Assembly (NCBI RefSeq): GCF_000194605.1
Contig: NC_015321.1
Coordinates: 4,340,001-4,404,000, forward strand
Length of the DNA: 64,000 nucleotides
Direction of reading: 5' to 3'
Source: Fluviicola taffensis DSM 16823
GTDB lineage: Bacteria > Bacteroidota > Bacteroidia > Flavobacteriales_D > Crocinitomicaceae
Position 1 is the first letter of the stretch; every line of letters starts with the position of its first letter. Positions 9,418-26,136 of this stretch are shown here, one piece after another. The notes under the pieces are model-generated. The model did no database searches and was not told the DNA's origin. It was given only the letters and a program-made list of their open reading frames with translations. Position numbers and translations under genes: made by a program.

Positions 9418-9445
9418 GCTGAAATGAGTGTTAAATTTGGAGCTC

Positions 9446-11294: not shown

Positions 11295-11480
11295 CTACCT
11301 TTTTTCATGCACTGACAAATACACAGCACTGAATATCAATCCCGCAGCAAAAATTGCATAACCGAATTGCATGACATTATTAATATAGGCAACAAATGAA
11401 AGTATTCCAATTAAAAGCAAGACCAGTTTAAGGCGTTTACCGAAGATAAATTCCATGAATTCATTGATAAAATGGTTCAT
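11295..11480 (-). CDS. Small membrane protein
   Basis: The 61-residue product has two hydrophobic segments (about 17-36 and 38-56) separated by a short turn, a basic N-terminal flank and a charged tail (SVHEKR). I do not recognise it. It sits 38 bp from the PepSY-like gene at 11519 and 47 bp from the Crp/Fnr gene, so it may be part of a small membrane operon. Confidence 0.6.
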   Translation of the reverse strand: MNHFINEFMEFIFGKRLKLVLLLIGILSFVAYINNVMQFGYAIFAAGLIFSAVYLSVHEKR

Positions 11481-11518
11481 TGAGTATCAATTTAGATGTT
11501 AACAAATTTAAGGAAATA

Positions 11519-12025
11519 CTAGATAAACAACAAAATTAAAGTCAAGACCATTCCAGCTAAAGAATAGATCAATCCAGCTTTGAAAGCTTTGGTTTTAGGT
11601 AAATACATCCAAAATGCAGATAAGACAAAAAATAAAAGAGAAACTCCAAAGAAGATATTCAACCAATAAAGTGGATCATCCGTACTTGCTTTATGTAAAT
11701 GACACATTTTATCCAAAACATAAGGAAGTTCTTTGGTAGTAATGTGTGCTACACCTGTTTTCTTATTATAGTCTCCATTCTTGAAATAAACCATATCTGC
11801 TGCTTCTCTCTCGAATTGATACTTGCGAATCCCAAGTTCTTTACCAATCAGCTCATTTTTAACATTCGGAGCAATTTTCACTTCTTCCGTATGTGCACTT
11901 TTGAGAAAATCAGTATCCCTAAAAATCAATACGATTCCACTAATGGCATAAACTGCCATGATACCTGCTAAGAAAAAACCAAGGTATCTGTGAAGGACAC
12001 GCATGGATACTTTTGAATTATTCAT
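11519..12025 (-). CDS. PepSY-type membrane protein (short)
   Basis: The 168-residue product begins with a membrane helix bearing RVLHRYLGFFLAGIMAVYAISGIVLIF (about 8-35), the usual first helix of PepSY-associated membrane proteins, which carries a His often assigned as a haem ligand. An extracytoplasmic segment (about 36-115, with MCHLHKAS) follows, then two more helices (about 120-140 and 148-167). It is much shorter than full PepSY iron-reductase-type proteins, so it is either a minimal member or a reduced one. Relatives are linked to iron uptake or ferric reduction; nothing local confirms this. Confidence 0.65.
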   Translation of the reverse strand: MNNSKVSMRVLHRYLGFFLAGIMAVYAISGIVLIFRDTDFLKSAHTEEVKIAPNVKNELIGKELGIRKYQFEREAADMVYFKNGDYNKKTGVAHITTKELPYVLDKMCHLHKASTDDPLYWLNIFFGVSLLFFVLSAFWMYLPKTKAFKAGLIYSLAGMVLTLILLFI

Positions 12026-12090
12026 GAAGTAAAATTAGTGATTCAATCGAAATTATGATTCACTAAAAAATTGATTTTGTTTTGAAAAAA

Positions 12091-12161
12091 TTACCGCAGA
12101 GAATGAAAGAGCACAAAGAGTAGTGAAATTCCCCTTTGCGCCTCTGTGCACTTTGCGTTAA
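12091..12161. repeat. Solo CGCAAAG-type palindrome
   Basis: An imperfect inverted repeat has a 28-nt left arm (12091-12118, beginning TTACCGCAGAG and ending GCACAAAG) and a right arm (12134-12161, beginning CTTTGCGCCTC and ending TTTGCGTTAA) around a 15-nt loop. It is related to the palindrome at 20447 and to the arms that flank the GxxExxY gene at 19293-19790. Confidence 0.8.
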
Positions 12162-12183
12162 AAAGACTTTGTTTCTTCATCGA

Positions 12184-13089
12184 TTAAAATTCGTCATCGA
12201 TTAATTCTCTACTTACCATCACTCCTGCAAGTGTTCCTTGTGCAACAACATTGGCAACCGAACGCATGGGTGTAGTGTTATCACCACAAGCAAAAACTCC
12301 TGGAATAGTTGTTTTTTGAAATTCATCTACTTGAATAAATCCTTGCTCTGTCAACGTACAACCTAATTTTTGAGGAATATCTGAATGCTGAACGAATGGC
12401 AATTTGGCATACATGGCTTTGAGATTCAACTTGCTTCCATCTTTCAAATAAACGTGTGTAATAAATCCATTAGTCTGGTCAAAAGCTTCAATTTCAGTTT
12501 CAATTAAATTAATTCCATGTTCTTCCAGTTTAGCTGTTTGTTCTGCTGTCAAAGTAGATTTTCCATTCGTAAACAAAGTCAATTCTTTCGTCCAATTATT
12601 GATCAACTTCGAAAATTGGAATGCCATTTCTCCATTTGCTAGAATCCCTGTTTTCTCATTGCGCACTTCATAACCGTGGCAATAGGGACAATGAATCATT
12701 GAAATTCCCCAAGATTCAGTTGCACCTTTAATTTCTGGCATCAAATCTTTCACTCCAGTTGCAAAAATGAGTTTTTTAGCAGCGAAAACTTCTCCAATTT
12801 CAGTCGTAATTTCAAATCCAAAAGCTGTTTTCTCTCCATCAATTGCTAATCCTGAATGAAATGTAACGGTTTTATATTTTGCTACCTGTTCTCTCGCTTT
12901 CAAAGTAATTGCTTGTGGAGTTTCTCCGTCTTGCGTAATAAAATTGTGTGAATGTGGTGTTTGAGCATTGCACGGTCTTCCACTATCAATAATGAGAACT
13001 TGTTTTAAAGCTCTTCCTAATGCCATTCCTGCTGAAAGTCCGGAATAACTTCCTCCGATAATGATCGTGTCGTAAATGATGTTTGTCAT
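12184..13089 (-). CDS. Thioredoxin-reductase-like FAD/NAD(P) oxidoreductase
   Basis: The 301-residue product has an FAD-binding GGSYSGLSAG motif (about 12-21), a redox-type CPYCHGYE site (Cys134 and Cys137), and the C-terminal FAD motif GVFACGDNTTP. The order is that of thioredoxin reductases, but the CxxC with the HGYE context and the missing GxGxxA-type second nucleotide motif place it in the broader TrxB-like group (often annotated NAD(P)/FAD-dependent oxidoreductase). It probably transfers electrons to a small disulfide protein. An upstream in-frame TTG at 13116 lies inside the -7 box of a strong promoter, so the ATG at 13089 is chosen. Confidence 0.85.
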   Translation of the reverse strand: MTNIIYDTIIIGGSYSGLSAGMALGRALKQVLIIDSGRPCNAQTPHSHNFITQDGETPQAITLKAREQVAKYKTVTFHSGLAIDGEKTAFGFEITTEIGEVFAAKKLIFATGVKDLMPEIKGATESWGISMIHCPYCHGYEVRNEKTGILANGEMAFQFSKLINNWTKELTLFTNGKSTLTAEQTAKLEEHGINLIETEIEAFDQTNGFITHVYLKDGSKLNLKAMYAKLPFVQHSDIPQKLGCTLTEQGFIQVDEFQKTTIPGVFACGDNTTPMRSVANVVAQGTLAGVMVSRELIDDEF

Positions 13090-13113
13090 GTTGCTGAAAG
13101 TTTGTTTGTTTGA

Positions 13114-13143
13114 CAAATTTACACTTTCAATTCATTATTGCAA
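13114..13143 (-). promoter_or_regulatory. Bacteroidota promoter of the TrxB-like gene
   Basis: On the minus strand there is TTG (13141-13143), a 19-bp spacer, then TAAATTTG (13114-13121), a very good match to the -33/-7 consensus. The box ends 24 bp upstream of the ATG at 13089. Confidence 0.65.
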
Positions 13144-13153
13144 CTTTATTGCG

Positions 13154-13693
13154 TTAAATACAATTCAAATTTCCAACCAATTCCTCCAGGCCAATTTCTT
13201 TTCTGCGTTCGTTGAATAATTTCAATTGATCTCCACAGAATTTCTCATTCGTATATTGACCAAAGTAAATAGGTTGATGCATATTTCGTTGACACCGATC
13301 ATACCACCAAGCATATTCTTTAGGAGGCATATTTCCTTTTTTAAGTTCACTGTAAAAAAGTTCTTTCAATTGAATGAAATCTTCTTCCAGTGTAAAATGA
13401 AGAATCATTCCGATAGTGCCTGCATAACGGACACGCCCCATGGTCGGATAACCATATTTTGTGGTCAACTCCACAAACGTTGCTTTGTTGATCGAATCAA
13501 TATCCGACTGTAGTTTCCAGATAGAATCGTTATTCAAGGCAGGATTTTTGGCCATCTTCACCCGATAATATTGATCGGATTTTTCCATTTTTTGAAGTTC
13601 GGTTTTCCACTCTTTTTTCTGTGCTGAAGAAAGCTCCTGCGCAAATGAAATTCCACTCATGAGTGAAAGGAAAAAAAGCAACAATTTATTCAT
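13154..13693 (-). CDS. Exported protein, DUF6624-like
   Basis: The product (179 residues from the ATG at 13693; another ATG at 13702) has a signal peptide MNKLLLFFLSLMSGISFAQ. The remainder is helical with LQKMEKSDQYYR, an INKATFVELTTKYGYPTMGRV segment and a LHFTLEEDFIQLKELFYSE stretch, which follow the DUF6624 outline (DQxxR, N..L..II..YGWP, then a helical pair). The family is of unknown function. It is close upstream of the TrxB-like promoter but transcribed separately, the promoter lying between them. Confidence 0.65.
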   Translation of the reverse strand: MNKLLLFFLSLMSGISFAQELSSAQKKEWKTELQKMEKSDQYYRVKMAKNPALNNDSIWKLQSDIDSINKATFVELTTKYGYPTMGRVRYAGTIGMILHFTLEEDFIQLKELFYSELKKGNMPPKEYAWWYDRCQRNMHQPIYFGQYTNEKFCGDQLKLFNERRKEIGLEELVGNLNCI

Positions 13694-13825
13694 AATCAGC
13701 ATGTTTTTTTCAACTAGTTAGTCATTCTAAATTATGTGATTTTTTAGAAGATCGTTTTCCAATTTTTATTCTTAATCAGATAAGCCCTTCTTTTTTCAGG
13801 ATGTTCATAGCTTCTTAAAGAATCA

Positions 13826-14410
13826 TCATTTACGCGCATATAAAATCCCCCATAAACCACCAGTATTCATTTTCACCTGAAAAGTGTCGCCAATATTCCA
13901 AGGATGAGGAGTATTCAATTGAATTCTTTCGTTTTGATACTCCATGTAGATATCATAGGAAGTGGGACCTTTGCCTAATTGAAAAATACGAGTCCTTCCA
14001 GTAGGCATATTAATAGATACTTCTTCAATCACTTGATTAAATCGCTCTGTTTCTGAAGAACCCCACCAATCATTTGTTTGAATGATGGTGTCATAAGTGA
14101 AAAATGAAAACAGGAAAATCAACAACATGAATGACGTAAACTTACTTCTGAAACGGTTCCATTTGGTTTCCTCTCGACGAGAAGATCGTTCATGAGAATA
14201 AAAAATAAAACGAGTAAATTTCTTCAAAATCGATAATGAAAACAGTAAAATAGGTACGGAAAAGTAACAAACCATCCACCAAAAAACCTTGGTCGACTCT
14301 AATACAAAATATACTTTAAGTACCCAAAAGAATTGAATAACTACGAGTAAAATTATCCCGATTAAAATCAAGCCCTTCGTTTTATTTGATAATTCTAGTT
14401 TCATTGACAC
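13826..14410 (-). CDS. Hypothetical membrane protein
   Basis: The 194-residue product has three membrane helices (about 11-32, 40-62 and 91-108), a strongly basic loop (HERSSRREETKWNRFRSK) facing the cytoplasm, and a C-terminal domain of about 80 residues with beta character (NMPTGRTRIFQLGKGPTSYD, TFQVKMNTGGLWGILYARK), probably outside the membrane. I recognise no family. It starts 3 bp after the stop of the lipocalin-like gene, so the two are co-transcribed. Confidence 0.6.
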   Translation of the reverse strand: MSMKLELSNKTKGLILIGIILLVVIQFFWVLKVYFVLESTKVFWWMVCYFSVPILLFSLSILKKFTRFIFYSHERSSRREETKWNRFRSKFTSFMLLIFLFSFFTYDTIIQTNDWWGSSETERFNQVIEEVSINMPTGRTRIFQLGKGPTSYDIYMEYQNERIQLNTPHPWNIGDTFQVKMNTGGLWGILYARK

Positions 14411-14413
14411 CTC

Positions 14414-14926
14414 TTAATCGTGATGAATAACCGACAACTTCTCTTCAATTCCAAATTCTTTCAGTTTCTTAAAGACTTCTTTTTGAACTTCCGAATCAAT
14501 CGTCTTGGACCTAGAAATCACATCATAACCTTCTGGGGTGAAAAGTGTTTTTTTAAAATGAATAATCATCCAGTTTTGATCTGTTGAGAGAAATAAAATG
14601 CTCCAATTACTTTTCAATAAACCTAGAATTCCTTTTCCGCGCCAAATAAACGAAGTATTCGAGTCATTCGAAGGTTTATCGTAACCAACAATACTTTTTA
14701 TTTTAGACTTCTTCGTGTAAAGAACTTCATCCAGTAAAACGGTTTCCCCTTTTCTAGTTGTGACTGAATAATTGAAAGAGGGATTCGTTTTATTTCCTTT
14801 CAACCACATGGGGAAATTGGATCGATTGACAAACCATTTTCCTTCCAGTTGATTTAATGGTGCTATTTGACTCATGAGCAATTGACTAATTGTTATAAAT
14901 AGAACTAAAAGCAGTATTTGTTTCAT
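14414..14926 (-). CDS. Exported lipocalin-like protein
   Basis: The 170-residue product has a signal peptide (MKQILLLVLFITISQLLMS) and then LNQLEGKWFVNRSNFPMWLKG, an N-terminal strand typical of lipocalins (GxW). A row of short strands follows, and the end TPEGYDVISRSKTIDSEVQKEVFKKLKEFGI resembles the final strand plus helix of Blc-type lipocalins. The match is partial, so I give it as lipocalin-like. Such proteins bind lipids or small hydrophobic molecules in the envelope. It is translationally close to the membrane protein at 13826. Confidence 0.6.
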   Translation of the reverse strand: MKQILLLVLFITISQLLMSQIAPLNQLEGKWFVNRSNFPMWLKGNKTNPSFNYSVTTRKGETVLLDEVLYTKKSKIKSIVGYDKPSNDSNTSFIWRGKGILGLLKSNWSILFLSTDQNWMIIHFKKTLFTPEGYDVISRSKTIDSEVQKEVFKKLKEFGIEEKLSVIHHD

Positions 14927-14960
14927 ATTGGAAGATACTGTTTTATCTTATGCAAATTAA

Positions 14961-15683
14961 TCAAAGTTCGAAGATATACTCTCCAACATATTCTTTGTCA
15001 TCCCAAAATAGCTCTTTCATCTTTTTGTTGGTCGATTTCTTCCAAAGAAAGCAATTTTTAGCTGTAGAAAACTCAAAAGTAACGAGTTCGGTCATTTTTA
15101 TTTTACCCAACTTAGAATCAACTATTCCCGATTCATAATTAGCTTTAAGAACAATTCTATTTTTATTCATATCAATTTCCTTCATTTCAACTTGGGAATA
15201 CGGAATTTCGTTAGGAAGAGCTTCAACATCTAAAAAACTCGCAAACTTAGAATAACAAAACAAAGTCGAAAAACGATTCTTTTCAACCCGAATAAGAGTT
15301 AAACTATAGGAATAATCTCCTGTTCCTTCGCCACTTTCAGAACACACAAACCAATCGTTCTTATAATTGTATTTTACTTTTTCGAGTTTGGATAGATCTT
15401 CTTGACAAGCTCTCAAAGAATCTAAAACAACAAACTTATCGGGATACAATTTGATTAAACGAATCATGTTTGAAACAGCCCCAAAGTCTTGAGTAATGTA
15501 AAGATCGGAATCTTTCAATCGAACAACATGGATGCTATCTACATTTTCTTTATCAATTGAAAGGAAGTGTTTCTTGACAACTTCAATAGTTATTGATTGT
15601 TTTTTCGAAGTATCCGAATTTTTCGATTTAGAATTGCAGGAACAAATAATTAATCCTATTAAAAAGTAAATGATTCTATGCAT
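14961..15683 (-). CDS. Hypothetical lipoprotein
   Basis: The 240-residue product starts MHRIIYFLIGLIICSCNSKSK, a lipoprotein signal with a Cys after a hydrophobic stretch, so it is probably anchored in a membrane facing the periplasm. The mature part alternates strands and charged turns (VDSIHVVRLKDSDLYITQDFG, RIVLKANYESGIVDSKLGKIKM) without a family I recognise. It is the first of three minus-strand genes (15683 down to 13826), with a 34-bp gap to the next, and may be co-transcribed with them. Confidence 0.6.
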   Translation of the reverse strand: MHRIIYFLIGLIICSCNSKSKNSDTSKKQSITIEVVKKHFLSIDKENVDSIHVVRLKDSDLYITQDFGAVSNMIRLIKLYPDKFVVLDSLRACQEDLSKLEKVKYNYKNDWFVCSESGEGTGDYSYSLTLIRVEKNRFSTLFCYSKFASFLDVEALPNEIPYSQVEMKEIDMNKNRIVLKANYESGIVDSKLGKIKMTELVTFEFSTAKNCFLWKKSTNKKMKELFWDDKEYVGEYIFEL

Positions 15684-15790
15684 GGTGATTTGTAAATGAT
15701 AAGGTGAAAATAGCCATTTTTATGTAATCTAAAAGTTCGAATGAATCCTATTAATAGGAACTGTTAATTATAGTAACTTTACAAATAAGA

Positions 15791-15862
15791 ATGAAAAAAA
15801 CTTTCAGATTACGAAAAATTATAAGCGTTCTGAAAATCAAGCGAAAATCATTCAAGGAATGA
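15791..15862 (+). CDS. Possible 23-residue basic peptide
   Basis: An ATG frame on the strand opposite to all neighbours encodes MKKTFRLRKIISVLKIKRK followed by SFKE, a strongly basic 23-residue peptide (10 Lys/Arg). TAACTTTA, one base off the -7 consensus, ends 9 bp upstream, and a hairpin with six Ts follows at 15921-15946, so a short transcript is plausible. A frame this short can arise by chance; the call is tentative. Confidence 0.25.
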   Translation: MKKTFRLRKIISVLKIKRKSFKE

Positions 15863-15920
15863 ATTTGGTTAATAAGAATCTAATAGCTAATAAAAAATAA
15901 AAAATGGATTTTTAGAGTCT

Positions 15921-15946
15921 AGCGATGCTGATAAGCTCGCTTTTTT
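15921..15946 (+). terminator. Rho-independent terminator, plus strand
   Basis: AGCGA (15921-15925) pairs with TCGCT (15937-15941), followed by a T-run (15941-15946). It points along the plus strand, where no annotated gene lies upstream except the short frame at 15791. The gap 15684-16032 otherwise holds no recognised gene. Confidence 0.5.
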
Positions 15947-16032
15947 ATCTGCGCATCTGTGCCTTTGGTGATCGCATGTCGGCAATAGCTTCAGCATAAG
16001 CGTTGTGGGAAGGAAAATCGAAGCAAGAATCA

Positions 16033-16287
16033 CTAACTAACCTCTTCGTAATCCACATCTTGAACATCACCTTTGGGACTTGATTTGGAAACAGAGACTT
16101 TTCCGAAATTCTTCAATTTCTCGTTCCGCTCTTTTACAAAACTCTTTTCACGAGCCAAATCAGCGCGTTCTTGGTCTAAATTGCGTTTTGCAATCATCAC
16201 ACGACCTAAAAACCGGAGCAAAATCAATGCTCCGATTATCATTAAGATCGTTTTAAAAAAACCAGTAATGCTTGCTTCAACAACCAT
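16033..16287 (-). CDS. DUF4834-like small membrane protein
   Basis: The 84-residue product has one membrane helix (about 10-30, GFFKTILMIIGALILLRFLG), a helical charged stretch and an acidic end with VDYEE (GDVQDVDYEEVS). This layout matches DUF4834, a small Bacteroidota family whose C-terminus usually reads GEYVDYEE. Its start codon is separated from the carB stop by one base, so it is translated from the carB mRNA. Function unknown; carriage with carB may simply reflect operon position. Confidence 0.65.
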   Translation of the reverse strand: MVVEASITGFFKTILMIIGALILLRFLGRVMIAKRNLDQERADLAREKSFVKERNEKLKNFGKVSVSKSSPKGDVQDVDYEEVS

Positions 16288-16288
16288 C

Positions 16289-19105
16289 CTACTTCGATAA
16301 ATGCATGTTTCTTTCCGAATAAATTTTTGTGAAGAACGGATCTTTTAAATTCTTAATGAAACGAATCGCTTCACCAGTTGATTTCATTTCTGGACCTAAT
16401 TCTTTCTTCACATCTGGGAATTTCTCATAAGAGAACACTGGAATTTTGATTGCATATCCTTCTTTCTTCGGAGTGAATTTGAAATCCTTCACTTTCTTGT
16501 CGCCCAGCATCACTTTCGTAGCATAGTTTACATATGGCTCATCATATGCTTTCGCAATGAAAGGAACAGTACGAGACGCTCTCGGATTCGCTTCGATCAC
16601 ATATACTTTATCGTCTTTAATGGCAAACTGAATATTAATCAAACCAACCGTTCGCAATTCAACTGCAATTTTTCGCGTAATGTCTTCTATTTGTTGCATC
16701 ACAAAATCTCCCAAGTTGTAAGGAGGAAGAACCGCATATGAATCACCAGAGTGAATTCCTGCTGGTTCAATGTGCTGCATCACACCAATGATGTAAACAT
16801 CTTCTCCGTCGCAAATCGCATCTGCTTCAGCTTCAATTGCTCCACCCAAAAAGTGATCCAACAAAATCTGATTGCTTCCCATTTCATTGATAATATCAAC
16901 TACGTGGTGTTCCAATTCTTCTTTGTTAATGACGATCTTCATTTTTTGTCCACCTAATACATAAGACGGGCGAACTAACAACGGAAATCCTAAATCTTTC
17001 GATAATTCGATTGCCTGTTCTGCACTTTCTACGATTCCGTATTTCGGGAAAGGAATGTTGTTTTTCTCTAATAATTTAGAGAAACGACCGCGGTCTTCTG
17101 CTAAATCCAATGCATCAAAGCTTGTTCCTAGAATTTTGATTCCGAAACGCTCTAATTTCTCAGCCAACTTCAAAGCAGTTTGTCCACCTAATTGAACAAT
17201 AACTCCTTCTGGTTTTTCATGCTGAATGATATCGTAAATATGTTCCCAGAAAACAGGCTCGAAGTACAACTTGTCTGCTGTATCGAAATCCGTAGAAACT
17301 GTTTCTGGATTACAGTTAATCATAATCGTTTCGTAACCACATTCTTTAGCAGCTAGAACTCCATGCACACAGGAGTAATCGAATTCAATTCCTTGTCCAA
17401 TGCGATTCGGTCCTGAACCCAAAACAACCACTTTTTTCTTGTCACTTACTTCACTTTCATTCTCAAACTCGAATGTAGAATAGTAATAAGGGGTTTTTGC
17501 GTCGAATTCTGCCGCACAGGTATCCACCAATTTGAACACACGTTTGATTCCCATTTCAGAACGCTTATTGTGCACTTCTGATTCCAGGCAACGCAACAAA
17601 TGTGCAACCTGACGGTCAGCATATCCTTTTTGTTTCGCTTCGAACATTAATTCCTTTGGCATATTCCCCAAATGGAATTTTTCAATGCGGCGTTCCAATT
17701 TTATTAAGTCCTCGATTTGTTTCAAGAACCAAGTATCTATTTTCGTTTTTTCAAAAATCGTTTTGAATGGAATTCCTAATTTAATCGCATCGTACACATG
17801 GAACAAACGATTCCAGCTTGGATTTTCCAAGGAATGCAAAATCTCATCTTGACTTGTCAATTCTTTTCCGTCAGCTCCTAACCCATTTCGGTTAATCTCC
17901 AACGACTGACATGCTTTTTGCAAAGCTTCTTGGAATGAACGTCCAATTCCCATTACTTCACCAACAGACTTCATTTGAAGGCCCAATCGGCGATCTGTTC
18001 CGGGGAATTTATTGAAATTCCAACGCGGTATTTTTACAATCACATAATCCAACGTCGGCTCGAATAAAGCAGATGTTGTTTTTGTAATTTGATTACTTAA
18101 TTCAGTTAAATAATATCCGATTGCCAATTTCGAAGCAATTTTCGCAATTGGATAACCTGTTGCTTTAGAAGCCAATGCCGAAGAACGAGACACGCGCGGA
18201 TTGATCTCAATCGCAATGATATCTTCATTTTCATCTGGTGAAACAGCAAACTGCACATTACATCCTCCTGCAAAATTTCCGATAGAGCGCATCATTTTGA
18301 TGGCCATATCGCGCATACGTTGGAAAGTTGTGTCAGACAAGGTCATAGCTGGAGCAACAGTTATGGAATCTCCCGTATGAATTCCCATTGGATCAAAGTT
18401 TTCAATCGAACAGATGATCACGACATTATCGTTTGCATCACGCAATAATTCCAATTCGTATTCTTTCCAGCCTAACAAAGCTTTATCAATCATTACCTCG
18501 TGAATCGGAGACAATTGAAGTCCGCGTTCCAATAATCCATCAAATTCTTTTGGATCATAAACGATAGATGCTCCTGAACCTCCAAGAGTGTATGAAGGAC
18601 GAATACAAAGCGGAAAACCAAATTCCTGTGCAATTTCTTTTCCTTCCAGGAATGATTTCGCAGTAGCCTGTGGAGCCATTGGAACATCAATCTCTTGCAT
18701 CAACATGCGAAATGCTTCTCTATTTTCAGTGATTTCAATTGCAGCGATATCTACTCCAATAATATCAACACCATATTCTTCCCAAATGCCCATTTCATCG
18801 CATTTAATAGCGAGATTTAAAGCTGTTTGCCCTCCCATTGTTGGCAATACCGCATCAATTTTGTGATTTTTCAAAATTTCGATGATGCTTTCAGGCTCAA
18901 GAGGTTGAAGGTAAATATTATCTGCAACAACTTTATCCGTCATGATTGTAGCCGGATTCGAGTTAATCAATGTTACCTCAATCCCTTCATCGCGAAGCGA
19001 ACGAGCAGCTTGAGAACCTGCGTAATCGAATTCACATGCTTGACCAATGACGATAGGACCTGAACCAATAATTAGTACTGACTTAATGGAATTGTTTTTT
19101 GGCAT
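16289..19105 (-). CDS. carB: Carbamoyl-phosphate synthase large chain
   Basis: The 938-residue product makes carbamoyl phosphate from bicarbonate, ATP and glutamine-derived ammonia for arginine and pyrimidine synthesis, with CarA as glutaminase. Both halves are complete: an N-terminal pre-ATP-grasp fold (VLIIGSGPIVIGQACEFDYAG), a first ATP-grasp domain (GGSGASIVYD; INPRVSRSSALASKATGYP), the oligomerisation domain (about 400-550), and the second half (VVVLGSGPNRIGQGIEFDYS; VLGGQKMKIV; EANPRASRTVPFIAKA). It ends soon after GEAIRFIKNLKDPFF, so the roughly 130-residue MGS-like regulatory domain found in Escherichia coli CarB (about 1070 residues) is absent. This shorter form is common in flavobacteria. 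carA is not in the window. A promoter lies at 19195-19228. Confidence 0.97.
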   Translation of the reverse strand: MPKNNSIKSVLIIGSGPIVIGQACEFDYAGSQAARSLRDEGIEVTLINSNPATIMTDKVVADNIYLQPLEPESIIEILKNHKIDAVLPTMGGQTALNLAIKCDEMGIWEEYGVDIIGVDIAAIEITENREAFRMLMQEIDVPMAPQATAKSFLEGKEIAQEFGFPLCIRPSYTLGGSGASIVYDPKEFDGLLERGLQLSPIHEVMIDKALLGWKEYELELLRDANDNVVIICSIENFDPMGIHTGDSITVAPAMTLSDTTFQRMRDMAIKMMRSIGNFAGGCNVQFAVSPDENEDIIAIEINPRVSRSSALASKATGYPIAKIASKLAIGYYLTELSNQITKTTSALFEPTLDYVIVKIPRWNFNKFPGTDRRLGLQMKSVGEVMGIGRSFQEALQKACQSLEINRNGLGADGKELTSQDEILHSLENPSWNRLFHVYDAIKLGIPFKTIFEKTKIDTWFLKQIEDLIKLERRIEKFHLGNMPKELMFEAKQKGYADRQVAHLLRCLESEVHNKRSEMGIKRVFKLVDTCAAEFDAKTPYYYSTFEFENESEVSDKKKVVVLGSGPNRIGQGIEFDYSCVHGVLAAKECGYETIMINCNPETVSTDFDTADKLYFEPVFWEHIYDIIQHEKPEGVIVQLGGQTALKLAEKLERFGIKILGTSFDALDLAEDRGRFSKLLEKNNIPFPKYGIVESAEQAIELSKDLGFPLLVRPSYVLGGQKMKIVINKEELEHHVVDIINEMGSNQILLDHFLGGAIEAEADAICDGEDVYIIGVMQHIEPAGIHSGDSYAVLPPYNLGDFVMQQIEDITRKIAVELRTVGLINIQFAIKDDKVYVIEANPRASRTVPFIAKAYDEPYVNYATKVMLGDKKVKDFKFTPKKEGYAIKIPVFSYEKFPDVKKELGPEMKSTGEAIRFIKNLKDPFFTKIYSERNMHLSK

Positions 19106-19123
19106 TATGCGCTTTTTAAGAGT

Positions 19124-19191
19124 TCAATTTGTAATTAATTGTTGTTAATCTTTGTAACACGGTAAAAGGCTCTACCTATACTACAAATTGA
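19124..19191. promoter_or_regulatory. Inverted repeat in the carB leader
   Basis: TCAATTTGTA (19124-19133) is perfectly complementary to TACAAATTGA (19182-19191). In the minus-strand transcript the second arm falls at the predicted 5' end and the first arm about 20 bp before the carB ATG, so the leader could close into a long stem-loop. Confidence 0.4.
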
Positions 19192-19194
19192 GCG

Positions 19195-19228
19195 CAAATT
19201 TAGGGAATTTAATCCAGAATCTTACAAA
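19195..19228 (-). promoter_or_regulatory. Promoter of carB
   Basis: On the minus strand TTTG (19225-19228), a 22-bp spacer and TAAATTTG (19195-19202) match the Bacteroidota -33/-7 consensus. Transcription should start near 19188, giving a leader of about 80 nt. Confidence 0.65.
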
Positions 19229-19292
19229 ACCGATTTTGTTTTTTACGGAGTTATTAACAGCAAAACGTTTTCAACCAAAGAATCTAAAAATG

Positions 19293-19790
19293 AAACACAA
19301 AGAAGCAAAGGGCGCAAAGATTAATAAGGATTTAAAAAATTATTCTTAAATTAAAAGAAAGAAATACCACTATTAACAATGACTGAAAACGAATTATCCT
19401 CCATAATTATTGGAGCAGCAATAGATGTTCACACTTTGCTTGGACCAGGGCTACTTGAAAGTGTCTATGAAACATGTCTGTATTATGAATTAAAAGAAAT
19501 TGGATTAAAAGTAGAACGGCAACTTGATCTTCCAGTCGTATACAAAAATGTTCATTTGGATTCAGGATTTCGATTGGATTTATTGATTCAAGACAAAGTA
19601 ATTATCGAAATCAAAGCAGTAAAAGAACTTTCCGATATTCATTTAGCACAGACCATGACTTATTTAAGACTTTCCAACACGCAATTAGGTCTGTTGATTA
19701 ATTTTAATGAAACCAGATTGAAATATGGAATTAAACGGGTAGTGAATAATCTGTAAGCTCAGACTTTGCGCTCTTCGCTTCTTTGCGTTT
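19293..19790. mobile_element. Putative palindrome-bounded GxxExxY cassette
   Basis: A 27-nt arm at 19293-19319 (starts AAACACAAAG, ends GCGCAAAG) and its inverted partner at 19764-19790 match at 24 of 27 positions. The pair brackets the GxxExxY gene with about 60 bp of leader and 7 bp after the stop. The arms are of the same CGCAAAG type as the gene-less palindromes at 12091-12161 and 20447-20516, where the loop is only 13-15 nt. No target-site duplication was recognised. That this is a mobile unit is inference. Confidence 0.5.
19379..19756 (+). CDS. GxxExxY protein, PD-(D/E)XK nuclease-like
   Basis: The 125-residue product has the family's size and name-giving motif, GLLESVYE (about 22-29), preceded by the usual AAIDVHTLLGPG. 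The C-terminal half has RLDLLIQDKVIIEIKAV (about 64-80), which supplies the D...ExK residues of a PD-(D/E)XK nuclease core, then HLAQTMTYLRLSNTQLGLLINFN. Family members are widespread, often multicopy, and have no proven function. Here the gene is alone on the plus strand and is enclosed by inverted CGCAAAG arms (19293-19319 and 19764-19790), which suggests it is carried by, or acts on, that palindrome. Confidence 0.9.
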   Translation: MTENELSSIIIGAAIDVHTLLGPGLLESVYETCLYYELKEIGLKVERQLDLPVVYKNVHLDSGFRLDLLIQDKVIIEIKAVKELSDIHLAQTMTYLRLSNTQLGLLINFNETRLKYGIKRVVNNL

Positions 19791-19895
19791 AGTAAAAAAC
19801 AAATCTTGTATTGAATTTGCCACTTGGATTATTGGTGAATTTTAGTGAATTTCGGTAGACGAAAAATAGCACTTAATACTATAAAACTCTAAATC

Positions 19896-20441
19896 ATGAC
19901 TATACGCACTTTTTGGCATTTAATTCTCAAAACACTCGGAATCTGGTTGTTTATAAATGGAATGCTTTCATTGCCAACCTTAATCTATGCTGTTACAGCA
20001 GGCTTAAGAGGTGGTTATTCTTCTTTTGAAAGTATGGAAATAGCTTATTTTATTCTTGCTATTACTTTTTACCTCTTGGTACTTCAGTTCCTGATTTTGA
20101 AATCACAATGGACGATTGATTTTCTAAAACTCGAAAAGGGATTTGAAGAAACGCATATTGATCTAACATTGCCCTACAACAAATTATTGCGGATAGTTAT
20201 TATAATTATCGGAGGAATTTTGTTTATCCGCGCTATTCCAAGCTTGATTGAAGATCTTTATTTGTTTATTACAGGCAATCTTCCTTTTAGCCAAAGCCCG
20301 AAAGCTATAAGTTTGATTGTCGGTGCTGCTCAAGCAATCGTTGGTTTCTTAGTGATGAATAACAGCGATATCGTTCAACGCTACATCAACAAGAAAAGTG
20401 GAGATGCTGAGAGTAAGCAGTTGGATAAAGAAGAATTTTAG
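19896..20441 (+). CDS. Hypothetical membrane protein
   Basis: The 181-residue product has four membrane helices (about 10-34, 48-67, 92-113 and 133-153), a cytoplasmic loop between the second and third, and a charged tail (NKKSGDAESKQLDKEEF). I do not recognise a family. It is not inside the GxxExxY cassette but lies between that cassette and the solo palindrome at 20447, which begins 5 bp after its stop codon. It is a single-gene unit. Confidence 0.6.
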   Translation: MTIRTFWHLILKTLGIWLFINGMLSLPTLIYAVTAGLRGGYSSFESMEIAYFILAITFYLLVLQFLILKSQWTIDFLKLEKGFEETHIDLTLPYNKLLRIVIIIIGGILFIRAIPSLIEDLYLFITGNLPFSQSPKAISLIVGAAQAIVGFLVMNNSDIVQRYINKKSGDAESKQLDKEEF

Positions 20442-20446
20442 ATTTT

Positions 20447-20516
20447 TTACCGCAAAGAGTGCAAGAACGCAAAGTTATCTGAATTCTCTTTGCGCCTTCG
20501 AGTCCTCTGAGGTTAA
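20447..20516. repeat. Solo CGCAAAG-type palindrome
   Basis: The left arm (20447-20474, begins TTACCGCAAAGAG, ends CGCAAAG) and right arm (20488-20516, begins CTTTGCGCC, ends GGTTAA) form an imperfect hairpin with a 13-nt loop. It sits between convergent genes (20441 plus, 20532 minus), so it may also work as a bidirectional terminator. Confidence 0.8.
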
Positions 20517-20531
20517 ATAAAAGAAAGTATT

Positions 20532-21962
20532 TTAATTCTGCATGATCTTCGTTTGATCAAAATACTTCTTCGTCTGCATTTCTTTCAGTAAAGATTCCAA
20601 ATTGGCTTTATCCGCCGCATAAAGAATAATGATTGGTCGCTTTTGTGCATCGAAAAAACTGTAAATTTTATTGGGAACCATTTTCACTTTTGAAAGTTCG
20701 GGAAATATTTTCTTGATGGATTTGGCTGTCACTTCGTGATTCTGGTCAATAATTACAAGTTGTGTTTGCGGACTCGTTTTTAGGTTCTCAACAGCATTTG
20801 GATCTAGAATCGGAGCGGAAACACTAATGTGTGTCAATTGGAAATAGGATCCAGCCAAGTTCATCATATCCCCCATACCCTCATCTGTTTGTGAATCGGT
20901 ATAAATGGATACACGATTGAGTAAAATCCCATAATCTGTGATTGAATTCGGGAAAGTAGCTCCAAACAAATCAATTGCTCTATTTACGAATTCCTGATCT
21001 ATCTGCTTATTCGCTGAAATGTACTCAGTAACTAAAGGATAAAGCGCTTTTCCAAATCCATTGATGTATTCGTTGTTGTACCAATCTGCGGGATCTGGTT
21101 TGCCACTTAAAAAATTGTAAGCCCATCCATTTCCAAGCGCAGTAGCCAATCCTTCATCAATGAAATTGTAGGCAAACTGGTTGTACGGCGATTTACTTTC
21201 AAAAAAGTAGCTTTCCAGTTTATGTTGAAAATCACTCGGTTGTTCGTCATATAAAACATGGCACATTTCGTGTAAAACAACGCCAATAGTTGCAATGTGA
21301 TCTATTTCATCCGTAAAAACACCGATACACAAACTATTTGAATACGGATTTGAAGTACTACTTCCGCTTTTTCCCGGAATCGGATAAAGTGCTACTGTAA
21401 ACGGAATATCAGAAATCCAAAATGAATTATAAAAGCGATTAATTTTCGTAAATGCTTCAGAACATTGATCAGCGTATTTTTCCAAAGCAATTCGTTGCCC
21501 GTTCAATTTTTCTTCATAGTCTTTCCATATAATCCGATCATAATGTATTTCTGCTTGCTGCATGATTTCGATTAACTTCTGCAATTCGCTATTTGGCAAA
21601 ATCCCCAGCATTTTATTTCTAAATTCAAGAATAGTTGATGAATTCACCAGTGCAATCGCAAGGAAATCATACGTGGTACGTGATGGACGACGACTGTTTG
21701 GAAATTCCTCTCTTTTAAATGAATAATTCAATTTAATCCGATCAAAATCACTAATCAATTGGGCAAATTCTTTATCCTCTTTCGTTTTAGACACTATGAA
21801 TTGCTCCAAGGCAGATGATGTATTATGTTCATGATTCGCCGTTTCCAGAAAGTTTAAGATGCAATAAGGCTTACTTATCTTGAATTGAAATTGAATGGTA
21901 TTTTCCGAAAATGCGGTTTGGAATACCAAACAAAGAGAAGCAAGAACAAACAGTTTTTTCAT
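20532..21962 (-). CDS. Exported zinc metallopeptidase-like protein (HExxH)
   Basis: The 476-residue product has a signal peptide (MKKLFVLASLCLVFQTAFS). Residues 231-235 read HEMCH, a HExxH zinc motif in the hydrophobic setting IGVVLHEMCHVLYDE, and 35 residues on comes NFIDEGLATAL (Glu270), a suitable third ligand for a gluzincin-type site. The rest is not a family I recognise; the C-terminal third (about 370-476) may be a separate domain. It is probably a periplasmic or secreted peptidase, with unknown substrate. It is a single gene with no clear promoter. Confidence 0.7.
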   Translation of the reverse strand: MKKLFVLASLCLVFQTAFSENTIQFQFKISKPYCILNFLETANHEHNTSSALEQFIVSKTKEDKEFAQLISDFDRIKLNYSFKREEFPNSRRPSRTTYDFLAIALVNSSTILEFRNKMLGILPNSELQKLIEIMQQAEIHYDRIIWKDYEEKLNGQRIALEKYADQCSEAFTKINRFYNSFWISDIPFTVALYPIPGKSGSSTSNPYSNSLCIGVFTDEIDHIATIGVVLHEMCHVLYDEQPSDFQHKLESYFFESKSPYNQFAYNFIDEGLATALGNGWAYNFLSGKPDPADWYNNEYINGFGKALYPLVTEYISANKQIDQEFVNRAIDLFGATFPNSITDYGILLNRVSIYTDSQTDEGMGDMMNLAGSYFQLTHISVSAPILDPNAVENLKTSPQTQLVIIDQNHEVTAKSIKKIFPELSKVKMVPNKIYSFFDAQKRPIIILYAADKANLESLLKEMQTKKYFDQTKIMQN

Positions 21963-22103
21963 AATTTCGATAATGGGTTTATTGTTTTTATGCTCGTGTT
22001 TTTAGACTCAAAAAAGTGACTCCTAACGACAAAATAATGGTTTTCATTTTATTTACAGGCTACACTTTTGGTTAATTTATGTAAACTGTTCTTCCTTCAG
22101 TAA

Positions 22104-23099
22104 TTAAAAAAGTGACGCCAATGAATAGATTTCTTTTGTAACAAAACCGTTGTTTCCAGGTTTTGAAGCAGACAAAAATCCGATGGTGTATTTTTTTGTT
22201 GAAAGAACCATTCCATTTCTCACCTCTCTTTGAGAATAAAGGAAAATGGGATAGTTAAATTCGATTACATTGAACGGATCACGTTTCAAAATCTTTTTAG
22301 CGTTCAGGCAAGTTTCTGTTTTTAGTGGTTTTGCTTGCACGAAATCAGGTACATGCAGTGTTTTTCCATCGGAACTTTTTACATCCCCAAACAAGTTATT
22401 GCCACTCGAATAACCGTTTTGATTAATCACTACGCCTGTTTTAACCAAGTCAAATAACGAAGTTCTGAAATAATATCTTGGGAATATTTCGCCATCCGCA
22501 CAATCCCTTTCATTTTCAGACACCTCCAGTTTCTGAAGAAAAGTTGACCATTGGCTACAGGAGTAATTATCGAAAGGATATTTGTACTCCAATGAAGGAG
22601 CTGACATCCGGTAAAGTCTGGCAACAGTACTATCGTATTTTTTTTTACTGTATTTTCCAGTCCATGAAAAGGTATCCGCCAATTTCACTCCTTTTTCAAA
22701 AGATAAAAGTATTCCATACATTTTCATCATTTGGAGTCGCTGGCTGTAAACCGAAAGACTTTCCGAGTTCCGACAATAAACCACATTCCCTGTTTTATTT
22801 TCCAGTATCACCATGGTACTGACTTTTCCCATGGAACTTTTTTGAAAGTAGCTATCCAATTTCGTTTCGATTTTCTGATCTAAAAAGGTTTGAACATCGA
22901 GGCTGATAGTACTGTCGTATTCTGGGACCTGAACGGGTAACTCCTTCATTAAAAATTTAATCACCGTAGAATCTTTAACTAAAGTTCCATCTGAATAATG
23001 AAAATGAAGTTTGGGTTTCTTATTACAGGAATAGAAAAATCCAACAGACAACGTTATTAGAGTGAATAATAAATATCGATGTCTGTTTGTTCTAAACAT
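22104..23099 (-). CDS. Lipoprotein, weakly penicillin-binding-protein-like
   Basis: From the ATG at 23099 the product has 331 residues and a lipoprotein signal (YLLFTLITLSVGFFYSC). Around residue 95, STMVILENKTGNVVYC resembles the first strand of PBP transpeptidase domains (the AxVxxxxTGxIxA pattern), and a few later stretches (FPRYYFRTSLFDLVKTG; GFLSASKPGNNGF) recall the region up to the KTG motif. The SxxK and SxN motifs are not evident, so if related it is probably not an active transpeptidase. It overlaps the end of the upstream membrane-protein gene by 8 bp, indicating an operon with 23092-24946. Confidence 0.55.
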   Translation of the reverse strand: MFRTNRHRYLLFTLITLSVGFFYSCNKKPKLHFHYSDGTLVKDSTVIKFLMKELPVQVPEYDSTISLDVQTFLDQKIETKLDSYFQKSSMGKVSTMVILENKTGNVVYCRNSESLSVYSQRLQMMKMYGILLSFEKGVKLADTFSWTGKYSKKKYDSTVARLYRMSAPSLEYKYPFDNYSCSQWSTFLQKLEVSENERDCADGEIFPRYYFRTSLFDLVKTGVVINQNGYSSGNNLFGDVKSSDGKTLHVPDFVQAKPLKTETCLNAKKILKRDPFNVIEFNYPIFLYSQREVRNGMVLSTKKYTIGFLSASKPGNNGFVTKEIYSLASLF

Positions 23100-23601
23100 G
23101 AGCAGTTTCTGTTTTTGAAAGCAGTTTGTTCTTAACACTTACCCAAACCAATAGGAGTCCTGTCGAAAATGCTATCAAAGATGCCATTAAATTTGACATG
23201 TCAATCTTTTTTGAAAAAAGTCGTGCTAGTGAATTGATCCATAAGTCCAGATATCCGTTTGAAAAAACTCCAATCAGAAATAGAAGAATAAATAGAGCTG
23301 CAACCAAAACCGTATTCAAAAACGTTTTTTTACTTATTCCATTGACAATTGATATCAGGATAATGCCAAACAGAAATCCGTAAAGCATGTAATGAATCGG
23401 AGTAGCCATCATTTCTCCAATTGTTCTATTAGAAAAGTGCTCCATACAATTTGAAACTGATTCAAACTGATTTTTCAATAGGCATTCGTATAAATCGGCA
23501 TCCAAGAAATAATAAAACCGAGAAAATGCAATCCCAAAAAGATGAATCGCAAGGACTTGAAAAAGAATTAATCGAACTGAAAGTTTACGGATGATTTTCA
23601 T
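23092..23601 (-). CDS. Hypothetical membrane protein
   Basis: From the ATG at 23601 the product has 169 residues with four hydrophobic segments (about 8-28, 65-85, 95-118 and 140-160). An earlier in-frame start at 23706 would overlap the aspartyl-protease gene by 50 bp and add a non-membrane extension, so 23601 is preferred. A cysteine-bearing loop (DLYECLLKNQFESVSNCMEHF) lies between helices one and two, probably outside. No family recognised. It lies between the retropepsin-type gene (55-bp gap) and the PBP-like lipoprotein (8-bp overlap). Confidence 0.6.
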   Translation of the reverse strand: MKIIRKLSVRLILFQVLAIHLFGIAFSRFYYFLDADLYECLLKNQFESVSNCMEHFSNRTIGEMMATPIHYMLYGFLFGIILISIVNGISKKTFLNTVLVAALFILLFLIGVFSNGYLDLWINSLARLFSKKIDMSNLMASLIAFSTGLLLVWVSVKNKLLSKTETAHV

Positions 23602-23656
23602 TTTACCTGAAATGTCTGTTAATTCGTTATGATTTTTAACTTCTCCAACTATTCTT

Positions 23657-24946
23657 CTACTTGAAAAGAATATGTGAATACTTGAAACTAATAACCATGG
23701 TTTCAAATTGTTTGATGAAATCCTGACCTAGATTCCCTTCAAATAGCCCATCAGTTTCTCCAACAACATCTTTTCGTACTTGCATATTCACAAGCTTTGC
23801 TTTCGATGTGCCAACTGAAAGTGTTACTTGAGGTAATAAATATCCCTCGTATTCAACAATTCCACCTGCTCCACCAGATTTTAGTAATTGTTTTTTTCCT
23901 TTTCGCTCAATTTTCTTTTTGTATTTGGAATAATAACTGCTATTCAAAGATGTTTCTGCAGCACCCGTGTCAAAAGTAAAATTCAAGGTGTCAGAATCTT
24001 TTATCACTTGAACAACAGGGACGAAACCATTAATAATTAAGTTACTTACAGGAAACTCTTGAGCGATTTTTGGAATAAACAACTCATCTTTACTATTCAA
24101 ATGAATTTCATCCAGGTTTCGAATTACTGGGAAACCAATAATTCCTTGTATGGAATAATCTGCTTCTGAAAAAGTCAAATCAGCATCATCAAAAACCAAA
24201 AAAACCACATTCTCACATTTGATTCCTCCAATAAAAAGCTCTTTTGCTACAGCCAAGTCACTTTTAACAGTTGCACCAGTAATGGCAGACACATCAAATT
24301 GAATGGGCATAATTTCCAGATTCATTTCCAAGGCAACAGATCGCTGAATAACCGAAAAATTGGCTCCTGTATCGAATACAAAATTCTTCTTTTTATCTGA
24401 AATAGTTACTGGGATATTGGCTAAGTTGGCTTTGTCTCTTGTTAATTGAATTCGAGCATCATTGGAATGAGTTATTTTTTGTTTACCACTATTCTCTAAT
24501 GCTTTCCATATTTTACCTGTATTCAGTAAATCATCCAATTCAACAGGAGTGCAAATATTATTGAAATTCTCAAGAATGTATTGATTTAGATTACTTGCTT
24601 CCTCGTACTCAAAAAGACTAATCAGATTTAATTGTTTAATCATCAAAATTTCTTTGAAAAGACTGTCGTTATTCATTTGACCAGAGCCTACTAAAAATGA
24701 TTCAATCGCCTCATTCGATTCTTTAAAATGAGAAAAACCATTTTCAACTAGTCCTAAATAATAGAAATAAACCTCTGGATCAATTTTCGATTTGTACTTC
24801 GTGATTATTTCTTTAACCTCGAAATAATCCTTTTTACTTGCTAAGTGAGCAAGTGATTTGTAACATTTCTCTTCGTTAAAAGGCTCTTTTTGGGCGCTTA
24901 CAAATACGGATGAGACACAAATAAATAGTGTGAAAATAATTTTCAT
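23657..24946 (-). CDS. Exported double retropepsin-like aspartyl protease
   Basis: The 429-residue product has a signal peptide (MKIIFTLFICVSSVFVSAQ), a helical N-terminal region of about 130 residues with TPR-like character, and two clan AA aspartic-protease domains. The first has FDTGANFSVI (Asp192), the second FDTGAAETSLN (Asp326), each followed by the typical flap and the hydrophobic GxxGxP/GNLG stretch (IQGIIGFPV; FEGNLGQDF). Retropepsin-type proteins normally dimerise, each giving one Asp; having both in one chain could give an intramolecular site. Periplasmic or secreted. Genes on both sides follow within 40-60 bp. Confidence 0.75.
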   Translation of the reverse strand: MKIIFTLFICVSSVFVSAQKEPFNEEKCYKSLAHLASKKDYFEVKEIITKYKSKIDPEVYFYYLGLVENGFSHFKESNEAIESFLVGSGQMNNDSLFKEILMIKQLNLISLFEYEEASNLNQYILENFNNICTPVELDDLLNTGKIWKALENSGKQKITHSNDARIQLTRDKANLANIPVTISDKKKNFVFDTGANFSVIQRSVALEMNLEIMPIQFDVSAITGATVKSDLAVAKELFIGGIKCENVVFLVFDDADLTFSEADYSIQGIIGFPVIRNLDEIHLNSKDELFIPKIAQEFPVSNLIINGFVPVVQVIKDSDTLNFTFDTGAAETSLNSSYYSKYKKKIERKGKKQLLKSGGAGGIVEYEGYLLPQVTLSVGTSKAKLVNMQVRKDVVGETDGLFEGNLGQDFIKQFETMVISFKYSHILFK

Positions 24947-24984
24947 AACGAAGATTGTAGCATGAAGATACCGAAAGGAATCAA

Positions 24985-26136
24985 TTACTTCAATTCAGAC
25001 CAAGGTTTTTGAACAATTTTCTTGAATTCATCTCTTTTGAAAGCTCGTTCGTTAATACCGTCGTATTCTTTGATAATATTTCCATTCCACAAATAGAAAA
25101 CTCCCGGAGTATCTTTTGTTCCTCCTAAGACGGTCCAGAATTGACCAACTTCTACAATTTTGAATGGATATTTTCTTCCTGCAAATGCAAAAAAGTCGGG
25201 AATTAATTCTGCTTCTTCCTCCATGAATACAATTTTCACTTCTGGGAAAGTAGGATCTTTCGAAGCCATTTCAGTCAAGGCCTTAGCGGTTTCTTTGCAA
25301 TGATCACATCCTGGGGCAAAAAAACATAGAATTTTTCGACCTTTATCAATGTCGCTAAACTGAGATGCAAATCCAGATTTTTTCAATTTGGGTTCATCAA
25401 CAACAGTCTTTTCTAAAGGTTTATCAGAGGCTTTTTCTTCTTTCACCTCATTCTTTTCCGCATTTTCTAATGGCTGACTAGTTTCTTTTTTAGGAAGAGC
25501 TGCAACAACTGATTTATCGTCCAAAACTTTCTCTTCATCCTCAGACATTTCCATTTCTTTCATCATATCTTCTACCAATTGATCATTGGATTTACGCTGC
25601 ATTGGTCCAACTAAAAACACAGCAAGAATCGAAGCAAATGTAATAGCTGAAATAAAAGAAAAATTCAAACTGTCATTCTGTTTGGACGTTTTTTGATATA
25701 GCACAACCAAAAGTCCCATTCCGATGATATTTTTAATCAATGCCTGAACTGGAGTCATTGGCAACAAAGATCCAAAACAACCACAATTCCCGCTATTCCC
25801 TGAAGATGCAATTTCGTAGCTTAAATGAATACTAAAAATCAAAAGCATCAAGAACGACATGGGGACTACCAATCTTTTGAAATAGTTCTTTTGAAGCAAT
25901 AGAACTCCCAATGCCAATTCACAGCCAATTAAAATTCGTGAGAAATAAGCAGCACTCGTTTCACTGAATCCCATTGGGATAAGTTGCTTTACTTCAAATG
26001 TAGGAAGCGCCATATTCGGTGAAGGATACAATTTCGCCACTGCCGAAAGCAAAAACATAAATGCCATGATTCCTTTTATGATAACAGGAAGTTGTTTCTT
26101 CATAAATCCTTCGTTTTCTAAGCTTTTAGATGCCAT
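24985..26136 (-). CDS. MauE-like membrane protein fused to thioredoxin-like domain
   Basis: The 383-residue product begins with a four-helix MauE/DoxX-type redox membrane domain (about 13-180) with the CGCFG motif (Cys118, Cys120), then an acidic, Pro/Lys-rich linker (about 183-255) and a thioredoxin-like domain with CDHC (Cys277, Cys280) in the setting ILCFFAPGCDHCKETAK. This suggests electron transfer across the inner membrane to a periplasmic disulfide reaction; the target is unknown. A second ATG at 26103 has an AAGGA-like stretch upstream and is also possible. It starts a likely operon with the retropepsin-type gene (38-bp gap). Confidence 0.8.
   Translation of the reverse strand: MASKSLENEGFMKKQLPVIIKGIMAFMFLLSAVAKLYPSPNMALPTFEVKQLIPMGFSETSAAYFSRILIGCELALGVLLLQKNYFKRLVVPMSFLMLLIFSIHLSYEIASSGNSGNCGCFGSLLPMTPVQALIKNIIGMGLLVVLYQKTSKQNDSLNFSFISAITFASILAVFLVGPMQRKSNDQLVEDMMKEMEMSEDEEKVLDDKSVVAALPKKETSQPLENAEKNEVKEEKASDKPLEKTVVDEPKLKKSGFASQFSDIDKGRKILCFFAPGCDHCKETAKALTEMASKDPTFPEVKIVFMEEEAELIPDFFAFAGRKYPFKIVEVGQFWTVLGGTKDTPGVFYLWNGNIIKEYDGINERAFKRDEFKKIVQKPWSELK

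Follow-up and report, generated by a model that had tools for sequence, protein, structure and literature searches.

In the REPIN/RAYT system, short extragenic palindromes are present in many copies and form inverted doublets that fold into hairpins, and the RAYT gene is itself flanked by repeats, with enzyme lineages having their own repeat classes, as set out in two papers (PMC3116915, PMC3733652). A second related system is the 23S IVS of Coxiella, in which the insert carries a small ORF (S23p) with heptamer repeats adjoining it, according to PMC4990558. With respect to the GxxExxY protein family itself, a further paper reports a gene beside a CRISPR reverse transcriptase that is called cas4 by one pipeline and GxxExxY by another (PMC8934634). 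We found no literature on the function of GxxExxY and no description of GxxExxY together with palindromes, in a search that had most subscription journals and preprints outside its scope.

The GxxExxY element described here resembles REPIN/RAYT, including the TIR-flanked TIRYTs, in that an enzyme gene is flanked by class-specific repeats, but the enzyme is a predicted PD-(D/E)XK nuclease rather than an HUH tyrosine transposase, and the element ends in TTAACC...GGTTAA with CRCRRAG/T units where REPIN/RAYT has GTAG or CGTC tags. The arm sequences read (TTAA)CCRCRRAG/T, with no GTAG or CGTC tag. Inverted doublets of the REPIN/RAYT type, of the class that flanks the enzyme, are found in Gemmatirosa and, more loosely (imperfect arms, weak folds), in the window's genome (G000, 4.63 Mb). 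The likeness to REP/RAYT proposed in the initial annotation of this DNA holds for multi-copy inverted doublets flanking an enzyme, but not for the HUH transposase and the end tags, which are lacking; the likeness to IS200/IS605 that was also proposed does not hold, as the element has no Y1 gene. Set beside RAYT, the GxxExxY family reaches at most 13 matches per genome (fragments included), and it was found in 56 of 99 relatives. The element shares with the 23S IVS and S23p an insert that carries a small ORF and repeats beside that ORF, but differs in its protein family, its arm type, its purifying selection and the location of the window copy outside rRNA. With MITEs and insertion sequences it shares terminal inverted repeats, gene-less copies and differing sites in related species, but it has no transposase, its arms consist of short degenerate units in arrays and there is no consistent target duplication. 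Our best reading is that the system works like REPIN/RAYT, but that a nuclease takes the role of the HUH transposase.

The window, by which we mean the whole 64,000-nt stretch of DNA that was analysed, contains one such element at 19293..19790 (no strand assigned), composed of left arm, gene and right arm and delimited by its inverted arms and a shuffle test. The left arm (AAACACAAAGAAGCAAAGGGCGCAAAG, with CRCAAAG units) lies at 19293..19319 on the + strand, and the right arm (reverse complement AAACGCAAAGAAGCGAAGAGCGCAAAG) at 19764..19790 on the − strand; as originally noted, these 27-nt arms form an inverted repeat with 24 of 27 positions matched. Their local alignment score is 39, whereas 100 shuffles of the flank gave no score above 29, and a chance origin of the arms is ruled out by the shuffles and by the control anchors considered below; flank pairs from different loci are a blunter null with shared motifs, for which the 99th percentile is 50. 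The sole gene between the arms had been described as encoding a GxxExxY protein with a PD-(D/E)XK-type core, and this is confirmed: the 125-aa ORF at 19379..19756 (+ strand), the only one of at least 80 aa within the element, matches TIGR04256 GxxExxY (E 1.5e-45, 154.3 bits, curated cut-off 35) and PF13366 PDDEXK_3 (E 2.3e-43, 147.7 bits, curated cut-off 22), in agreement with its structure model. The element lies between two protein genes, carB and a 181-aa ORF, which are divergently oriented. Four congeners keep the pair of carB and the downstream gene with a gap of ∼305–420 nt, compared to 790 nt in the window, and with no GxxExxY inside. Thus, the empty or gene-less sites that the initial annotation had called for are found in congeners, but an exact empty site for the window element was not obtained, because the intergenic DNA is too diverged for the borders to be fixed.

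In structure prediction, the GxxExxY protein resembles a minimal Cas4/RecB-like PD-(D/E)XK nuclease. The AlphaFold model of the window protein has a pLDDT of 94.7, and its first Foldseek match is 4ic1 (SSO0001, which we take to be a Cas4 protein), with a modest TM score of 0.60 and an E value of 2.5e-3, followed by LHK exonuclease and lambda exonuclease; no Foldseek match had an E value <0.001, and no solved relative was found by sequence at E values up to 1. The residues D67, E77-x-K79 and Q91-xxx-Y95 are invariant in 38 aligned sequences, and presumably correspond to the D, ExK and QxxxY residues of the RecB/Cas4 PD-(D/E)XK pattern. GxxExxY shares this invariant D...ExK...QxxxY and the predicted fold with Cas4/RecB nucleases, but is only 125 aa long, has no invariant cysteine in the 38-sequence alignment and is located in inverted repeats, outside a cas/recBCD locus. 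The dN/dS ratio, which could be computed for 11 of 15 pairs taken (orthologues or same-clade copies; the other four were dS-saturated), is 0.03–0.13 in 10 of the 11; the eleventh pair, with almost no change and a stop in one member, has a ratio of 0.78. Judging from these ratios, GxxExxY is kept by purifying selection.

These results bear on the possibility that the element acts at the RNA level in the manner of an IVS, such that the arms would pair in the transcript, RNase III would excise the insert and the ORF would be dispensable. As single-stranded DNA, the whole window element has a fold z score of −1.71 relative to shuffles, and no known RNA family matched above its gathering score in window positions 9000–26000, the one sub-threshold match being a CRISPR repeat (E 0.67). 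Although the Coxiella 23S IVS with S23p has a similar anatomy (PMC4990558), and inverted arms are seen at the relatives' S23-family genes, the low dN/dS ratios of 10 of the 11 pairs and the position of the window element between protein genes argue against this possibility, which we consider very improbable.

The association between GxxExxY genes and inverted repeats extends far beyond the window. Inverted repeats with a score ≥28 enclose the gene at 106 of the 139 GxxExxY loci for which 350 nt of flank were available on each side, but at only 3 of 259 control anchors, which were drawn from all studied loci, those of the four-helix-bundle genes included. The 139 loci comprise 48 from the genus (49 loaded, 48 with both flanks), 18 of 21 from other relatives (L043, L052 and L061 are cut by contig ends) and 73 of 80 named GTDB loci; the relatives' loci are best matches, with most fragmentary matches and the broken copies L225–L227 left out. 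The arms are arrays of ∼7-nt CRCRRAG/T units. Similarly, at least two CRCDRAK heptamers are present on the coding strand in the 350 nt upstream of 118 of the 139 genes (37 on the opposite strand) and on the reverse strand in the 350 nt downstream of 122 (35 on the other strand), compared to 22 of 331 background windows. Even among the 33 genes with no inverted repeat at threshold, 17 have two or more units on each side; the 33 include L038 and L045, two of the four copies in the CGCAAAG clade, each with sub-threshold arms and units on both sides.

Loci with scores ≥28 come, based on record titles, from Bacteroidota, Planctomycetota, Acidobacteriota, Chloroflexota, Verrucomicrobiota, Cyanobacteria, proteobacteria, Omnitrophota and one methanosarcinal archaeon, but many of these are draft metagenome genomes, and contamination may therefore account for single placements, most of all for the archaeal one. 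The excess beside GxxExxY genes that had been predicted for CGCAAAG palindromes is seen for inverted repeats over many phyla (106 of 139 loci). The arms at the window locus are of the CGCAAAG type, but the arms in general are arrays of the broader unit type, and an association limited to CGCAAAG is ruled out by the other copies in the window's own genome. Four of its five GxxExxY genes have inverted repeats exceeding shuffles, and their arms are of four different types (CGCAAAG, CCACGAATT, CCCGCAAATG and CCGCGGAGG), and none was detected at the fifth (L005). A strict pattern, AACCRCRRAGN{20,50}CTYYGYGGTT, was too insensitive to serve as a palindrome counter, with matches in 4 of 99 genomes, all four of which contain GxxExxY.

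Arm type is inherited with the protein clade, independently of the host. In 13 genomes of the genus (the fourteenth, G011, has no GxxExxY match), arm type pairs with protein clade, and paralogues within one genome differ in their arms. We placed labels on a tree of the proteins from 98 of 111 loci with a score ≥26 (the 13 with fewer than two units were left out), a tree with few columns and many weak forks. The AG/AT ending of the unit requires 4 changes on this tree, compared to a mean of 22.6 and a minimum of 18 for shuffled labels, a result that comes mainly from the genus because only 1 of the 65 other rows is AT. The CAC/CGC label requires 18 changes (shuffled mean 28.1, minimum 20), and the host-genome label 23, compared to 24.3 when shuffled, and thus does not cluster. 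The idea that the pairing of left and right arms is maintained within each element holds moderately at most: only 66 of 106 elements have a left/right arm similarity above the cross-similarity to the arms of their nearest relative.

If palindromes that are recombinogenic or mobile simply acquire small genes, GxxExxY would be a passenger that does not act on the arms. Indeed, other small genes are found in inverted repeats; among the relatives (L065–L094, 28 of 30 loci used), four-helix-bundle genes (TIGR02436, the 23S-IVS family) have inverted repeats at 18 of 28 loci, as do some small GIY-YIG genes. Moreover, a match between the 10-nt interiors of gene-less arms and those of the resident gene's arms was equalled in 1572 of 5000 shuffles, which favours a passenger and leaves unsupported the idea that gene-less arms carry the interior of the resident gene's arms. 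However, the two gene families differ substantially in their arms: at least two CRCDRAK units are present in 94 of 106 GxxExxY arm pairs compared to 1 of 18 four-helix-bundle pairs, and at least two TTAG/ATAG units in 5 of 106 compared to 11 of 18. Within GxxExxY, arm type follows the protein subclade. Free cargo would mix, and the family-specific arm types therefore argue against it; we regard a passenger role as unlikely, though deserving of some weight.

Four-helix-bundle genes in short-unit inverted arrays constitute, as a separate observation, a parallel palindrome-gene line. Small GIY-YIG genes as a third line gave a mixed result, with TCGATAC/TGTCA-type arms at 5 of 22 small loci and terminator-like repeats or none at the rest; the six long-protein GIY-YIG control loci score ≤25. 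The small loci to note are L266, L268, L269, L277, L286 and L293, with TCGATAC / GTGTCA..TCGAG motifs in five of the 22.

Since the GxxExxY gene is usually located between repeats whose type follows the protein, the gene and its repeats look like one selfish element. We assign a probability of a little under 0.6 to the reading that arms and gene form a single selfish palindromic element, in which the nuclease processes its own repeats. There is good support for gene and arms being a single mobile unit; a role for GxxExxY itself in moving the palindromes is what we infer.

The window also contains two gene-less palindromes of the CGCAAAG type, reported from the outset as the same structure in its empty form. 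Both are present where reported (neither with a strand), but they are less perfect than was implied: the arms of 12091..12161 (12091–12118 and 12134–12161) match at 17 of 28 positions, and those of 20445..20517, which lies between convergent genes, match at 19 of 30 (20445–20474 and 20488–20517). They match poorly because the middle of the arms differs, and their symmetry consists of outer and inner CGCAAAG-like units; as single-stranded DNA, both fold slightly better than shuffles (z scores of −1.28 and −1.36). The same structure thus occurs empty and filled only roughly, as gene-less arms are imperfect and often pair two types; by eye, the gene-bearing copy has two arms of the same type, and many gene-less copies combine two types.

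By itself, CGCAAAG shows no striking enrichment in the window, with 11 occurrences compared to 6.6 expected and a maximum of 13 in 100 simulations. In the whole genome, CGCAAAG-N10-CGCAAAG with up to two mismatches has 61 matches, compared to 24 for a reversed control pattern, and 26 of these matches are arranged as 13 pairs on opposite strands, ≤130 nt apart (nine inward-facing and four outward-facing). The outward-facing pairs (CTTTGCG..GGTT, loop, AACCGC..AAG), which have the reverse of the usual order, are located at G000:C1:629115-629187, 1309711-1309782, 1345031-1345104 and 1972127-1972208.

Palindrome copy number was predicted to track the gene, and in the 14 genomes of the genus, uncorrected for relatedness, it is highest where the matching clade is present. 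The number of CGCAAAG-N10-CGCAAAG matches with at most one mismatch, which includes the genes' own arms and background, is 33, 29, 27 and 27 in the four genomes that contain genes of the CGCAAAG clade, and 12, 11, 10, 10, 9, 3, 3, 3, 2 and 0 in the other ten (one of which, G002, is 84% complete). The reversed control pattern occurs 1–6 times in these 14 genomes. The chance that the four clade genomes rank at the top is 1/1001, if relatedness is ignored.

Host transposases of the RAYT-like Y1 (HUH) type could in principle move the palindromes, with GxxExxY hitch-hiking. Y1_Tnp genes are present in 11 of the 14 genus genomes, including all four with many CGCAAAG arms, but they are also present in low-count genomes, and none of 14 Y1_Tnp loci (23 matches, 16 fetched, 14 used) has an inverted repeat of the GxxExxY type (best scores 29) or paired arms. 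We rejected RAYT-driven palindromes on this basis, and see hardly any likelihood of Y1-driven movement, although single CRCAAAG heptamers occur within 1.5 kb of 10 of the 14 loci.

Two genomes contain GxxExxY genes with palindromes next to them. As an independent case, a GxxExxY gene of Gemmatirosa kalamazoonensis has a complete palindrome on each side. The arms of the upstream one match at 28 of 28 positions, and the downstream one is found at ≥40 and 39 places on two megaplasmids (≥79 places in all), with no match elsewhere among 72,556 plasmid records. Six copies found within 250 kb with a filter of ≥22 matched positions, the upstream palindrome included, have arms that match at 26–28 of 28 positions. 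In G031 (L224, G031:C10:163900-167500), two GxxExxY genes have CACAGAG palindromes around them, and the 699-nt unit of gene and palindromes is tandemly duplicated with 99.6% identity. The gene may thus lie either within a palindrome that is split or between two complete palindromes.

If gene and arms form one mobile element, occupancy should be expected to differ between related genomes. The CGCAAAG-armed clade genes of G000, G001, G007 and G009 have element interiors with 73–77% nucleotide identity, and the four loci share no flanks within ∼1.25 kb on each side, confirming that this element occupies different sites in related species. Occupancy also differs at single sites. The L036 site has GxxExxY in G001, a small GIY-YIG gene instead in G008 (between other long repeats) and in G000, and gene-less inverted repeats of other kinds in G009 and G013, clearly above 40 shuffles; G002 was barely above these shuffles at most and G007 was not. 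Such exchange of GxxExxY, GIY-YIG and gene-less palindromes at one site is in favour of a passenger role. The L045 site, with GxxExxY in G009, has a perfect terminator-like palindrome in G003, less perfect ones in G002 and G008, and in G001 a gene-less palindrome of the type that belongs to another GxxExxY clade, all of which exceed 40 shuffles. Inverted repeats at this site do not exceed 40 shuffles in G013, G007 and G000, the last of which has a degraded CGCAAAG pair that is no longer above them. Neither L036 nor L045 provided clean empty sites, as several of these sites hold other palindromes or genes.

A closer comparison is provided by G009 and G002 (84% complete), which are 91–98% identical at the flanks of shared GxxExxY sites. 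Ten of 19 palindrome stretches in G009 were compared, of which three were unjudgeable and one (L324) was judged by one flank; none of the seven gene-less palindromes judged is intact in G002. One is kept partly, with ∼57 extra nucleotides, and one has a different palindrome at its place. A third, L318, is a 154-nt insertion relative to an empty site in G002, with a 20-nt direct repeat at its borders. Target duplications, which had been suggested as a mark of insertion, are thus represented by this one 20-nt case but not by any consistent duplication; in Gemmatirosa, no duplication of 3–8 nt is common to at least four of six palindromes.

The segment between the arms is inverted, relative to both conserved flanks, at 3 of 8 orthologous sites in the genus (L204 compared to five others; L210/L005; L215 compared to L197 and L191), and a fourth flip, at L190, is seen relative to one flank. 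In L204 compared to L060, the breakpoints are inside the arms, which persist. All flips were scored between species, and ordinary recombination between inverted arms could also yield them.

These sites also bear on whether the arms serve expression, as a terminator or RNA hairpin, an autoregulatory operator or a protector of mRNA, rather than mobility. In favour of such a role, there are two sites where relatives have terminator-like palindromes in the position of a CGCAAAG palindrome or element, and the gene-less palindrome 20445-20517 lies between convergent genes. However, gene-less arm pairs outnumber the genes (≥12 opposite-strand pairs compared to five GxxExxY genes in G000, as well as the ≥79 places in Gemmatirosa), the window element has divergent neighbours, the breakpoints of the gene flip fall within arms that persist, and the same sites differ in occupancy between species. 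We consider it improbable that expression is the role of the arms.

A selfish element with its own nuclease would most likely operate as follows. Hairpins or a cruciform would be extruded from the arms, most readily where lagging-strand DNA is single-stranded; the GxxExxY nuclease would recognise the array of units in the palindrome, and then cleave at it or trim it. Repair or re-copying of the cut hairpin would invert the loop, and the same repair would replace one palindrome by another at terminator-like intergenic sites and would spread gene-less copies, much as RAYT is proposed to act on REPINs, but without an HUH transposase. More tentatively, and with somewhat more doubt than belief, we suggest a class of mobile palindromes driven by small stand-alone nucleases rather than transposases: GxxExxY would be cognate to CRCRRAG/T palindromes in bacteria and perhaps archaea, parallel lines of four-helix-bundle (23S-IVS) and small GIY-YIG genes would have their own arm types, and all would compete for, and replace, terminator-like intergenic palindromes.

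GxxExxY is a widespread family annotated as 'unknown', and the cognate palindrome is its first candidate substrate. A link to palindromes would account for the patchy, multi-copy distribution of the family, and would provide a candidate enzyme for intergenic palindromes that do not belong to REP/RAYT systems. If a minimal Cas4/RecB-like domain handles hairpins, this would be relevant to how Cas4 originated and to the instability of palindromes.

Two further loci are worth noting. In Bacteroides finegoldii (L370, NZ_OY725952.1), a GxxExxY gene with CCACAGAGGACGCAGAGG arms is located between radA and another gene on the same strand. In the window itself, there is a second long inverted repeat, with 29-nt arms at 46469-46497 and 47280-47308 that are 83% identical and 782 nt apart, and this repeat encloses the ORF at 46677-47060.
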